In this document: positions 22,662 through 26,462 of the stretch, piece after piece
Position numbering within the stretch: the stretch's first letter is position 1
How the letters are laid out: every line of letters starts with the position of its first letter
Assembly: GCA_020247545.1 (NCBI GenBank)
Contig: JADCIX010000002.1
Span: 1-62,422, forward strand
DNA from: Rhodocyclaceae bacterium
GTDB taxonomy: Bacteria > Pseudomonadota > Gammaproteobacteria > Burkholderiales > Usitatibacteraceae
Length of the DNA stretch: 62,422 bases
Direction: 5' to 3'
Position numbers and translations under genes: made by a program
The notes under the pieces: model-generated
Seen by the model: the letters and a program-made list of their open reading frames with translations, nothing else
The model's database searches: none
Told to the model about the DNA's origin: nothing

Positions 22662-23207
22662 ATGAAGCGACGTAATTTTCTGACCACTGTGGCGGTAACT
22701 GCCGGAGGATTGACCGTGTTAAAGGATCTTTTTGCCCAACGTATGGGCCCAAGCGCGCCCGATGCTGCAACCATTAAGACGGCCATGGCGCAAGCCGCCG
22801 GCCCTTCCCCGAAGTTCGAAAAATTGGAGCTGAGCAAGGATGAGTGGAAAAAGCGTCTGACACCGGCGCAGTTCGATGTGTTGCGCAACGAAGGAACGGA
22901 GCGCGCCACCACCAGCCCGCTCAATAACGAAAAGCGCAAGGGCGTGTTTCACTGCGCTGGATGTGACCATCCCTTGTTTACATCAGAGATGAAGTACGAA
23001 AGCGGTACCGGCTGGCCGAGCTTCTTCACCACGTTGCCCGGCGCTTTTGCGAAATCGACTGACTACAAATTGATTTATCCGCGTACTGAGTACCATTGTG
23101 CAAGATGTGGTGGTCATCACGGGCATGTGTTTAAGGATGGCCCCGCGCCGACTGGCGAGCGGTGGTGTAACAACGGTATCGCACTGGTTTTTAAGCCGTC
23201 TGCATAG
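22662..23207 (+). CDS. msrB: Peptide-methionine (R)-S-oxide reductase MsrB with Tat signal
   Basis: Reduces methionine-R-sulfoxide in proteins. The 181-residue product has the zinc pairs CAGC (98, 101) and CARC (146, 149) and the catalytic Cys169 in 'GERWCNNGIALVF'; many MsrB have RYCxNxxxL[KR]F here, so the Tyr-to-Trp change is a variant. Unusually, it starts with a twin-arginine-type signal (MKRRNFLTTVAVTAGG, then a hydrophobic stretch), so it probably acts in the periplasm on oxidised envelope proteins. A ribosome-binding site TAGGAAC lies just upstream. No membrane reductase partner gene is adjacent. The next plus-strand unit begins after a hairpin. Confidence 0.93.
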   Translation: MKRRNFLTTVAVTAGGLTVLKDLFAQRMGPSAPDAATIKTAMAQAAGPSPKFEKLELSKDEWKKRLTPAQFDVLRNEGTERATTSPLNNEKRKGVFHCAGCDHPLFTSEMKYESGTGWPSFFTTLPGAFAKSTDYKLIYPRTEYHCARCGGHHGHVFKDGPAPTGERWCNNGIALVFKPSA

Positions 23208-23221
23208 ATAATGAAAGTCTA

Positions 23222-23241
23222 TTATTGGCGGGCATTTTCAG
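23222..23241 (+). repeat. 20-bp intergenic repeat, copy 2
   Basis: Exact second copy of the 20-mer at 4873-4892. Here bases 23229-23240 form the left arm of a hairpin whose right arm is 23253-23264. Confidence 0.75.
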
Positions 23242-23264
23242 ACAGTTTTGCTTGAAAACGCCCG
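23229..23264 (+). terminator. Hairpin after msrB
   Basis: Eleven of twelve bases pair between 23229-23240 and 23253-23264, with a 12-base loop. It lies just after the msrB stop. There is no immediate T-tract, so it may act as an RNA 3'-end stabiliser or a Rho-dependent site rather than an intrinsic terminator. Confidence 0.5.
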
Positions 23265-23322
23265 AGAATAGGGGAGTTTTACGTTTTTCCATTTCTGCTT
23301 TTGCCCTGCTACTATTTGGCAC

Positions 23323-23388
23323 ATGATCATCTGCGCAACCTTCTGTTTTTGGTACTACTTTTCTAAGCCACAGGCGGAGAAAGGGTAG
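23323..23388 (+). CDS. Aromatic leader peptide of the aroG attenuator (candidate)
   Basis: A 21-codon open frame from ATG 23323 to TAG 23386-23388. Codons 7-13 read Phe-Cys-Phe-Trp-Tyr-Tyr-Phe, so six of seven are aromatic. It is followed 30 bases later by a strong intrinsic terminator and then by aroG (DAHP synthase), the entry enzyme of aromatic biosynthesis. Together these are the marks of ribosome-mediated attenuation. Bases 23358-23364 can pair with 23378-23384, with an inner GCC/GGC pairing (23367-23369 with 23373-23375). A ribosome stalled on the aromatic codons would cover the left arm and free GGCGG (23373-23377) to pair with CCGCC of the terminator (23421-23425). No clear Shine-Dalgarno sequence is visible. 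The peptide and stems are read directly; the mechanism is inferred. Confidence 0.8.
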   Translation: MIICATFCFWYYFSKPQAEKG

Positions 23389-23418
23389 CGCGCATCACTC
23401 GCTCACCAGATTTCAAAA

Positions 23419-23451
23419 AACCGCCGACCAAACCACCGGCGGTTTTTTTTT
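23419..23451 (+). terminator. Intrinsic terminator of the aromatic attenuator
   Basis: A perfect 8-bp GC-rich stem, AACCGCCG (23419-23426) with CGGCGGTT (23437-23444), a 10-base loop and a run of nine T (23443-23451). It lies 60 bases before aroG, so as a plain terminator it would silence the gene; its place after the aromatic leader peptide makes it the likely attenuator. A run of A before the stem would also allow it to work on the other strand. Confidence 0.9.
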
Positions 23452-23510
23452 GCCGCATTTGGGCATTACGGTCGACATCAGCATGTTTCATCCGGTCGCA
23501 AAACTCACCA

Positions 23511-24641
23511 ATGAATACCCCCGCTAAAATGAAAAGTCCTTCACTATCCCTCGTTACCAGCAAAGCAGATACCGATATGCCTTATAACACCGACGACCTT
23601 CGAATCCGTGGCATCAAAGAGCTGACGCCGCCCGCACACCTGATGCGAGAGTTTCCCTGCACTGAGGCGGCATCGGCGACGGTGTTTCGTGCGCGCGAAG
23701 AAATTCACCGAATCATGCATCGCGGCGACTCGCGGCTGTTGGTGATTGTCGGACCTTGCTCGATTCATGATTACGACGCGGCAATGGACTACGCCAAACG
23801 CCTGCAGGCCTTGCGCCTGACGATGGAACCCGACCTGACAATTGTGATGCGGGTTTACTTTGAAAAACCGCGCACGACCGTGGGTTGGAAGGGTTTCATC
23901 AACGATCCCAATCTCGACGACAGTTACGACATCAACAAAGGCTTGCGGCAGGCGCGCAAACTGCTCCTCGACATTAATGATCTAGGCCTCGCCGCAGCCA
24001 CAGAATTTCTCGATTTGATCTCACCGCAGTACCTTGCCGACTTAATCGCTTGGGGGGCGATAGGTGCGCGCACCACGGAAAGCCAGTCGCACCGGCAACT
24101 TGCGTCCGGTCTATCGTGTCCGGTCGGTTTCAAGAATGGCACCGACGGCAATATACGGATCGCGGTCGATGCGATTAAAGCCGCTTCCGCCCCGCACCAT
24201 TTCTTGTCCGTGACCAAAGGTGGACACTCGGCCATTGTTTCGACCGCAGGCAACGAGGACTGCCACATTATATTGCGTGGCGGGAAAGAGCCCAACTTTG
24301 ACGCCGCGAGTGTTGACGCAGCTTGTCAGGAACTCGGCAGGGCGGGACTTGCGCAGCGCGTGATGATCGATTTTTCGCATGCAAATTCCTCCAAGCAGTA
24401 CAGCAAACAGCTGGATGTATCCGCAGCTGTCGCGCAGCAGATTGCTGCGGGAGACAGCCGTATCGTAGGTGTGATGGTCGAAAGCCACATCAATGCTGGA
24501 AGACAAGACATTGTGCCGGGAAAACCATTGGCGTATGGCGTCTCGGTCACCGACGCATGCCTTGGCTGGGAAGACACGGAAAAGTTATTGATGCAACTCG
24601 CGGCGAGTGTCCGCGCCCGCCGGTTGGCCAACGCAGAATAA
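23511..24641 (+). CDS. aroG: 3-deoxy-7-phosphoheptulonate synthase, class I alpha (AroG/F/H type)
   Basis: Condenses phosphoenolpyruvate and erythrose 4-phosphate, the first step of the shikimate pathway. The 376-residue product has the full metal and substrate site: 'VGPCSIHDYDAA' with metal-ligand Cys83, 'KPRTTVGWKGF', and 'MIDFSHANSSKQ', which match E. coli AroG. The start is uncertain. ATG 23511 gives a 22-residue extension over E. coli; ATG 23577 (MPYNTDDLRI) matches the family N-terminus. Neither has a strong ribosome-binding site. It is preceded by the leader peptide and terminator and followed 16 bases later by a second DAHP synthase-like gene. Which aromatic amino acid inhibits the enzyme cannot be read. 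Confidence 0.95.
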   Translation: MNTPAKMKSPSLSLVTSKADTDMPYNTDDLRIRGIKELTPPAHLMREFPCTEAASATVFRAREEIHRIMHRGDSRLLVIVGPCSIHDYDAAMDYAKRLQALRLTMEPDLTIVMRVYFEKPRTTVGWKGFINDPNLDDSYDINKGLRQARKLLLDINDLGLAAATEFLDLISPQYLADLIAWGAIGARTTESQSHRQLASGLSCPVGFKNGTDGNIRIAVDAIKAASAPHHFLSVTKGGHSAIVSTAGNEDCHIILRGGKEPNFDAASVDAACQELGRAGLAQRVMIDFSHANSSKQYSKQLDVSAAVAQQIAAGDSRIVGVMVESHINAGRQDIVPGKPLAYGVSVTDACLGWEDTEKLLMQLAASVRARRLANAE

Positions 24642-24657
24642 CGAGAATCGAAACAAT

Positions 24658-25593
24658 ATGGCCACTGAACTCAGAATATTGGGGCGTCACCAGATTGACG
24701 ATCACAAAGTTGGATTTAGCTACAACGGTGTGGCCTTTGGCCAGAACACGCTACATACGTTCGCTGGATTAAATGCCGTCGATACCCGCGAGTACGTTGA
24801 AGCCACCTTTGCATGTTTGCGTGAACATGGACAGCAGTGCGCGCGGATGGGGGCCTACAAGCCGCGTACCAGCCCGTACTCATTTCAAGGAATGGGCAAG
24901 GAGTGTCTGCCTTGGGTATTTGAGTTGGCTGGCAAATACGATATACGAGTGATTTCGATGGAGGTGACGCGTGAAGCGCACGTCGACGAGATCAATGAGG
25001 CGCTTGAGATTACCGGTCGACCCACTGGTGTGATGCTGCAAATCGGCACTCGCAACACGCAGAACTTTGAGCTTCTGAAGGCGGTCGGCCGCCAGCATGA
25101 GTTTCCAATCTTGCTAAAGCGCGGCTTCGGCATTACGCTCGACGAGTCGTTAATGGCAGCCGAGTACTGTGCTTCCGAAGGAAACACCAAAATTGTGTTT
25201 GGCCTGCGCGGCATGAAAACAAATTTTGGTGACCCGCACCGCAACCTCGTTGATTTCGCCCATGTGCCAGTGGTTCATCGGCTGACGCGTATGCCCGTCT
25301 GTGTTGACCCGTCACATTCAGTTGGTGCGCGGGGTGCCTCGCCAGACGGTATCCTCGACGTTTTTCATGTGGCGGCCCAAGGCATCATCGCCGGTGCAAA
25401 CATGCTGTTGGTGGATATGCACCCCGAGCCCCGCAAATCGCTGGTTGATGCAGCGCAAGCGATCTCGCTCACAGAGTTGCCGTATTTTCTGGAGGATGTC
25501 GCGATTGCGCGTGAAGCCTATCTCCGGCGACTTGCGCTCACAGAACGAGTGAATCAGTCAGCAGAGAATACGCAGCAGCAGCGAGCTGCATGA
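24658..25593 (+). CDS. DAHP synthase-like protein, class I beta / KDO8P synthase superfamily, Asn-type site
   Basis: A 311-residue TIM-barrel enzyme related to class I beta DAHP synthases (Thermotoga, Bacillus) and not to AroG. It keeps GAYKPRTSPYSFQG (65-78; the KPRTS loop is typical of erythrose 4-phosphate users), QIGTRNTQNF (128-137), ILLKRGF (151-157) and DPSHS (217-221). The usual AGPCSVE motif reads AGLNAVD (36-42): the metal-ligand Cys is Asn39, as in metal-independent KDO8P synthases such as E. coli KdsA (GMN). The ligand Glu before HPEP is Asp253. It lacks the N-terminal regulatory or chorismate mutase domain of relatives. ATG 24658 follows aroG by 16 bases. A DAHP synthase role is likely but unproven. 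Confidence 0.75.
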   Translation: MATELRILGRHQIDDHKVGFSYNGVAFGQNTLHTFAGLNAVDTREYVEATFACLREHGQQCARMGAYKPRTSPYSFQGMGKECLPWVFELAGKYDIRVISMEVTREAHVDEINEALEITGRPTGVMLQIGTRNTQNFELLKAVGRQHEFPILLKRGFGITLDESLMAAEYCASEGNTKIVFGLRGMKTNFGDPHRNLVDFAHVPVVHRLTRMPVCVDPSHSVGARGASPDGILDVFHVAAQGIIAGANMLLVDMHPEPRKSLVDAAQAISLTELPYFLEDVAIAREAYLRRLALTERVNQSAENTQQQRAA

Positions 25594-26462
25594 CTTCCCG
25601 TAGAGCGGCTGGTAGACACGGATATGTGCTTGCCTCGGTGAGGCCGCTGTTTGTCGCCGCCGCGCTTGCATCTGGCGCAGCGATTTACGCTGCTGAGCCC
25701 GCGAAGCGTATTGCCGCGCTGGCCCCGTCCATAACAGAGCTGGTCTATGCTGCTGGTGCCGGCAAGAGTCTCGTCGCGGTTTCGGCATTCAGTGACTATC
25801 CTGAAGCGGCTAGGCAGCTGCCGCAAGTGGCGGATTTTGCCGGCATCAACCTTGAAGCATTGATTCGACTTAAGCCCGATCTTGTGCTGGTTTGGGAGTC
25901 TGGTACACGTCAGGCAGATATCGCCCGACTGCGTTCTCTGCAAATTCGTACGGAGTCGATTCGAATCGATACATTTGACGACGTGCCGAAGGCGATTCGT
26001 AGGATTGGCGAGTTTGCGGGTACAACTGAAACAGCGTATGCGGCAGCGGAAAAATTTGTTTTACGCGCCAAAGAATTGGCAGACAAAAATCGAGGCAAGC
26101 CGAAAGTGAGCGTGTTTTTTGAGATTGGGCGCTCACCGCTGTTAACGATCAACGGCCATCACTTCATCACGCAGGTATTGTCTATCTGTGGTGGTGTGAA
26201 CGTATTCGCCAGTGCGTCGCAGCAGGTGTTTCAGCCTTCGCATGAAACGCTGCTACAGATTGATCCTCAGGTAGTTATGCGAGGTGCCTCCCCGCACGGC
26301 AATCGTGATCGAGACGATGGTCTCTATCAAGGTTTCGCGGCGTATCGCCGAGGACAAATATTGTCGGTTAACGCCGATCACATACTGCGGCCCGGTCCAC
26401 GTCTTATCGATGCCGCCGCCGATGTATGCGACGTGTTAGACGGCATTCGCGCAGCCAAGTAG
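25590..26462 (+). CDS. BtuF-like periplasmic ABC substrate-binding protein
   Basis: A helical-backbone metal-receptor protein of the BtuF/FhuD/TroA type, 290 residues. An N-terminal signal peptide (about 10-35, ending AAIYAAEP) directs it to the periplasm. The family opening 'RIAALAPSITELVYAAGAGKSLVAVSAFSDYPEAA' is very BtuF-like, so a corrinoid is the first guess for the ligand. The ATG overlaps the stop of the DAHP synthase-like gene (ATGA), so it is translationally coupled to an aromatic pathway gene. No ABC permease or ATPase gene is adjacent, so it must borrow a transporter or serve another function. It ends convergent with the receptor pseudogene. Confidence 0.82.
   Translation: MTSRRAAGRHGYVLASVRPLFVAAALASGAAIYAAEPAKRIAALAPSITELVYAAGAGKSLVAVSAFSDYPEAARQLPQVADFAGINLEALIRLKPDLVLVWESGTRQADIARLRSLQIRTESIRIDTFDDVPKAIRRIGEFAGTTETAYAAAEKFVLRAKELADKNRGKPKVSVFFEIGRSPLLTINGHHFITQVLSICGGVNVFASASQQVFQPSHETLLQIDPQVVMRGASPHGNRDRDDGLYQGFAAYRRGQILSVNADHILRPGPRLIDAAADVCDVLDGIRAAK

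Follow-up and report, generated by a model that had tools for sequence, protein, structure and literature searches.

DAHP synthase commits carbon to all of the aromatic amino acids, and in the textbook scheme its genes are controlled by TyrR and TrpR. The aroG locus examined here raises the question of how this step is governed where these repressors are not found. In work on the TyrR/TrpR regulon, as far as the text available goes, they are described as retained by many gammaproteobacteria and missing from other classes (PMC5343134). The window, the whole stretch of 62,422 nucleotides that was analyzed, is one contig of a 3.54-Mb genome, and a search of this genome gave no TrpR match and no TyrR-type HTH match, with a positive E. 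coli control. The logic therefore appears to be other than that of E. coli, as a reading of the DNA made from its letters alone (the sequence-only reading) had suggested. From the sequence analysis, it is likely, with a probability of roughly 90%, that aroG is controlled by a ribosome-mediated transcription attenuator responding to the supply of charged aromatic tRNAs.

The putative target, aroG (23529 to 24641, plus strand), encodes a DAHP synthase of the AroFGH type whose product scored 598.7 bits against the NCBIfam AroG model (cutoff, 568 bits); a protein search of the genome gave a single gene of this type. The longest ORF runs from 23511, but the ATG at 23529 is the more probable start, as loci L001 to L004 have an ATG there in a like context. 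A second DAHP synthase-like gene, of the I-beta type (24658 to 25593, plus strand), begins 16 nt after aroG. It fell below the NCBIfam cutoffs and matched solved DAHP synthases with a best E value of 3e-46, and it also lies behind aroG in the other loci of the genus, L003 excepted, in the piece covered. The two genes probably form one operon, in which case the second would probably be under the same attenuator. A gene for a BtuF-like substrate-binding protein (25590 to 26462) overlaps the second gene by 4 bases, and a similar sequence comes next in the loci of many relatives. Tandem pairs of aroG copies were observed in related genera (L017, L018, L027, and L135); in one such genome (G019), the first copy (L135) is preceded by a leader of the kind described below, and the search showed none ahead of the second (L017), nor ahead of the second copy at L027.

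Upstream of aroG, an ORF of 21 codons, MIICATFCFWYYFSKPQAEKG, extends on the plus strand from the ATG at 23323 to the TAG at 23386 to 23388 and carries the run F C F W Y Y F at codons 7 to 13 (23341 to 23361), exactly as the sequence-only reading had described it. It is thus a short ORF with many codons for the end products of the pathway. Among the 1,413 short ORFs of the window (10 to 60 codons, both strands, one per stop), it was the sole case in which six of seven consecutive residues are aromatic. An overlapping TTG-started, Leu-rich frame at 23301 to 23366, MPCYYLAHDHLRNLLFLVLLF, was regarded as a side effect of the T-richness of the control codons.

An intrinsic terminator lies between the leader and the structural gene (23415 to 23451, plus strand; −16.6 kcal/mol). 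Its hairpin of 12 pairs and a 10-base loop (23415 to 23426 with 23437 to 23448; z, −5.2) runs into nine T residues at 23443 to 23451. It begins 26 nt after the leader stop, with 32 nt from the stop to CCGCC, so the distance of 30 bases given earlier was about right. A generic scanner run over 23200 to 23600 reported no terminator and no promoter; its loop limit is 8, against a loop of 10 here, and the promoter hexamers are weak.

Two further helices would compete with the terminator, giving three mutually exclusive structures. The protector hairpin, formed by segments 1 and 2 (23355 to 23388, plus strand; −13.1 kcal/mol), pairs 23355 to 23364 with 23378 to 23388 around a bulge at 23383 and adds GCC/GGC pairing within 23367 to 23375. 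It takes in control codons and would sequester GGCGG. The antiterminator, formed by segments 2 and 3 (23373 to 23425, plus strand; −16.2 kcal/mol), consists of one helix between GGCGG (23373 to 23377) and CCGCC (23421 to 23425) and another between GAAA (23379 to 23382) and UUUC (23411 to 23414). It excludes the terminator (segments 3 and 4), as both use the CCGCC at 23421 to 23425. The GGCGG/CCGCC pairing had been proposed correctly from the letters alone; the protector proved longer than proposed, and the GAAA/UUUC helix had been missed. Elsewhere in the family, other genera have GGGA/UCCC or a like pairing as the second antiterminator helix, with an accompanying change in the protector.

To what extent these elements are kept elsewhere was assessed in 230 stretches upstream of aroG, comprising 30 from relatives, 80 from named genomes (the best 80 of 588), and 120 from the order, taken among the matches listed by similarity. 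These are neither random nor wholly independent, as some genomes occur in two sets (for example, L010/L031 and L065/L115), and a few are second copies of tandem genes (L017 and L027). An aromatic-rich leader together with a CCGCC...GGCGG terminator was found in 21/30, 33/80, and 45/120, respectively, or 99 of the 230, and was missing from 131 under the scan used. The reverse strand gave 0/230, as did each of five dinucleotide shuffles. Within the genus, a leader with F/Y/W runs plus terminator was present at 11 of 12 loci, counting the window; the twelfth (L005) is cut at the contig end, and its terminator and GGCGG segment are still there. The attenuation reading thus survived the comparison with relatives that had been suggested for it, the leader and terminator being kept and the protector and antiterminator pairings maintained in concert. 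Named carriers included Burkholderia, Paraburkholderia, Caballeronia, Cupriavidus, Massilia, Rugamonas, Janthinobacterium, Bradyrhizobium, and Xanthomonas, and a Thiobacillus metagenome assembly also carries both parts. In Cupriavidus, the leader was seen in C. lacunae (L054). In the enterobacterial stretches (for example, Citrobacter, Erwinia, and Serratia), leader and terminator were not both present.

A covariance model was built from 40 of 98 leaders (L147, counted among the 99, was left out from this point), and those 40 rematch by construction. In the genome of the window, it gave one full-length match, before aroG; six further matches up to E 0.1 were partial, mostly to the terminator part, and one of these was the aroG terminator on the opposite strand. 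Across 397 genomes sampled from the phylum, 96 were matched at E 0.001, many by the terminator only, and 57, among the matches listed, were matched over the full length with an E value no higher than 1e-5. In this sample, the full-length matches reached the order, the rest of the class, and other classes of the phylum. All of the best 30 matches, the window included, lay before aroG with an aromatic leader. Rfam gave no match in the window at the gathering score, and at 12 representative loci none of its families (Phe, Trp, and others) matched at the leader with E up to 0.1.

The 98 leaders correspond to 86 distinct peptides, 91 distinct leader DNAs, 95 distinct sequences when the upstream region is included, and 89 with the GGCGG anchor, which excludes L067 and L155, where the anchor is lacking. 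All three residues (F, Y, and W) occur in 43 of the 86 peptides, F and Y in 39, F and W in 2, and F only in 2. Relative to GGCGG in the 89 anchored leaders, the F/W/Y share at codons −10 to −7 was 89, 92, 97, and 97%; codon −5 was aromatic in 69%, and aromatic residues were nearly absent from −3 onward. GGCGG keeps a single reading phase in 78/89. The start of the last aromatic codon lies 14 nt before GGCGG in 48/89, including the window. A ribosome covers about 12 to 13 nt past the first base of the A-site codon, so that one stalled at the last aromatic codon would just leave GGCGG free; the control codons thus sit at stalling distance from segment 2.

Conservation of the helices was less simple to demonstrate by alignment. 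In an alignment of 40 sequences, the terminator pairs next to the core vary on both sides, and RNAalifold recovered the terminator alone, with no protector, from all 40, because the protector register differs among clades. With seven sequences of the genus, it recovered the protector core and missed the terminator. For this reason, segment energies of matched leaders were tested against permuted combinations, a test in which kinship among leaders can inflate significance. For the 89 leaders, the protector averaged −13.0 when matched and −11.8 when permuted, and the antiterminator averaged −18.4 and −17.1; in neither case were any of 2,000 permutations as good. With 34 representatives, 1 of 5,000 permutations was as good for the protector and 22 of 5,000 for the antiterminator. 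Synonymous recoding of 91 leaders indicated that the protector region is stabler than recoded versions on average (mean z, −0.94; 79% below zero). The antiterminator was likewise better than in recoded versions, with a mean z of 1.30, 98% of leaders above their own mean, and p 0.05 reached singly in only 3%. For either helix, most individual leaders fell short of significance. Taken alone against its synonymous recodings, the window did not stand out in either helix (protector z, −1.03; antiterminator p, 0.495), and the antiterminator is weak at locus L006.

The leader also lacks a Shine-Dalgarno site. An extended −10 element, TGC-TACTAT (23307 to 23315, plus strand), has its hexamer end 7 nt before the leader ATG, and transcription is predicted to start at 23321 to 23323, giving a leaderless or nearly leaderless RNA. 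In all 20 leaders of the family that were tested, a TGnTAnnnT box ends 6 to 10 nt before the ATG. Over 95 leaders, 35 such boxes fell at 6 to 10 nt, compared with 8 across all distances from 11 to 60. A Shine-Dalgarno duplex of −4.5 or lower was found in 5% of the 95 leaders, at 21% of random places, and at 78% of 91 aroG starts, the last figure being generous, as the best of the candidate starts was used (no start was found in 4/95). For the leader in the window, the duplex energy was −0.9, that is, it has no Shine-Dalgarno site. Given the missing site and the −10 box so close to the ATG, the leader mRNA is probably leaderless, and in the family of the window the transcript probably starts at the ATG itself. 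The Burkholderia and Massilia types have no close −10 box and, by eye, no Shine-Dalgarno site either. An extended −10 motif, TGnTA, is reported on leaderless mRNAs of Bradyrhizobium japonicum in the text available (PMC4842269).

From these features, we infer the start site, leader translation, stalling, and read-through, which may be arranged as follows. RNA polymerase would begin at the leader ATG or within about 2 nt, and a leaderless leader mRNA would lock transcription start and leader translation together. When aromatic amino acids are plentiful, the ribosome would reach the stop codon and cover segment 2 (GGCGG...), the terminator would form, and a transcript of about 125 nt would be released. 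When charged Phe, Tyr, or Trp tRNA is short, the ribosome would stall in codons 9 to 13, open the protector, and leave GGCGG free; GGCGG-GAAA could then pair with UUUC-CCGCC, no terminator would form, and aroG would be transcribed. If the leader is not translated, the protector would form and transcription would end. As to which amino acids count, the prediction is that the leader reads Phe, Tyr, and Trp together.

Other explanations of the same features were weighed. Arrest peptides such as TnaC sense a ligand in the ribosome exit tunnel, and the leader might likewise sense a free aromatic amino acid or another ligand there, its codons not being read as tRNA supply. The peptide is compact and strongly aromatic, and its spacing from the RNA switch is fixed, which would suit such a role. 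Arrest peptides usually keep exact residues, however, and here F, Y, and W replace one another and change order, with only their aromatic class preserved: the 86 distinct peptides differ in this way, and codon −8 is F in 41, Y in 31, and W in 14 leaders. Because of this variation, an arrest peptide is not favored and is considered unlikely. Still less probable is that the attenuated transcript works mainly as a small RNA, perhaps with its peptide, in trans and does not control aroG in cis. The predicted leaderless transcript of about 125 nt with a strong terminator at its end would suit such a role, and rnTrpL/peTrpL of Sinorhizobium meliloti is a precedent in the text available (PMC7298713), but conservation is poor between segment 2 and the terminator, the geometry is in keeping with cis control, and the element stood before aroG in every one of the 30 best matches. 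A trans role in addition to cis control may nevertheless exist.

A third rival, in which the hairpin simply ends the msrB transcript from upstream and the ORF is there by chance, draws on the position of msrB (22662 to 23207), which lies on the same strand and ends 115 nt before the leader, and on the A- and T-runs flanking the hairpin, which could serve both strands (reverse-strand hairpin matches occurred in 86/230 stretches). The aromatic codons, the spacing, and the helices are nevertheless kept in relatives, including those whose covered piece showed no msrB (for example, L004, L008, L009, L010, and L013), and the ORF is the most aromatic of its size class in the window. A chance ORF or a plain msrB terminator is hardly credible and was rejected on the conservation and the controls. 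Attenuation of aroG by the supply of charged aromatic tRNAs remains the preferred reading.

Mixed ilv and thr leaders are known. A mixed aromatic leader is also less unusual than the sequence-only reading had claimed, as a Phe-Tyr-Phe leader (aroR) precedes the DAHP synthase gene aroF in Corynebacterium glutamicum, where a response to Phe limitation is reported (PMC11802643, PMC4046766), Phe supply mattering and Tyr supply being without effect (PMC11802643), in the text available. The element described here resembles aroR in joining an aromatic-codon leader peptide and an attenuator to a DAHP synthase gene; it is set apart, by description, from that actinobacterial leader, for which the available text mentions no Trp. 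Competing helices and ribosome stalling are shared with pheL/pheA, trpL, and pheST of E. coli, each of which reads one amino acid before different genes (in part in PMC11802643, in the text available). The S. meliloti trpL attenuator RNA likewise begins at the leader ATG, and attenuation there operates without transcription repression, but it reads Trp only and stands before trpE(G) (PMC7298713, in the portion available). The uORFC-13-1 motif, a predicted Phe-containing upstream ORF with a terminator before aroF in Acholeplasma, is also similar; compared by its description, it differs in having at least one Phe codon and 24 sequences from Acholeplasma and environmental sources (PMC8632094, text available in part). 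For ilvBNC of C. glutamicum, a branched-chain amino acid operon, the title of Morbach 2000, as cited in PMC4046766, describes a leader peptide that is produced although no ribosome binding site is present. With two aroG genes of Ralstonia solanacearum, deleting either one is reported to have raised a reporter of the other 10- to 20-fold (PMC6379268, in the text available), which would be compatible with control by starvation.

Neither attenuation nor leaderless leaders are new in themselves, a DAHP synthase gene with a Phe/Tyr leader is on record in C. glutamicum (aroR), and the mechanism is of a known kind; what sets this case apart is that a leader with three residues stands before aroG, together with the putative leaderless start and the breadth. 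No description of a three-residue proteobacterial aroG leader was found in the open-access literature; parts of it may already be contained in Neshat 2014 or in older predictions for proteobacteria (Vitreschak 2004, Panina 2001, and the attenuator site of Merino, for which see PMC1173090). A term search of the main texts of PMC2965389, PMC4603805, PMC5688073, and PMC4842269, as available, did not return "aroG." The element offers a concrete answer to how proteobacteria without TyrR/TrpR may control the DAHP synthase step and would tie attenuation to leaderless translation in many lineages. The covariance model allows it to be found elsewhere, and a three-input sensor in a single peptide becomes directly testable. 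We hold only tentatively, at odds a little short of even, the wider view of an old, Pseudomonadota-wide attenuator family in which one leader peptide reads Phe, Tyr, and Trp for entry into the shikimate pathway in place of TyrR/TrpR, from a leaderless mRNA in many lineages, with a by-product of about 125 nt that may also act in trans.

Elsewhere in the same genome, no aromatic leader was found at pheA. Upstream of trpE, a Trp-rich short ORF, MMFVDKTNWSWRWQNWR, was observed on the minus strand (L262, 2118 to 2171; contig C32 of G000), ending 77 nt upstream of the point where trpE probably starts. In this genome it is not followed by a T-run; T-runs are present there in three relatives (L267 to L269). 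At the trpE loci of the genus, a Trp-rich ORF occupies a like place in 9 of 11, this genome included (L272 has none, and L273 is cut short), and by its sequence it is a possible trp leader.
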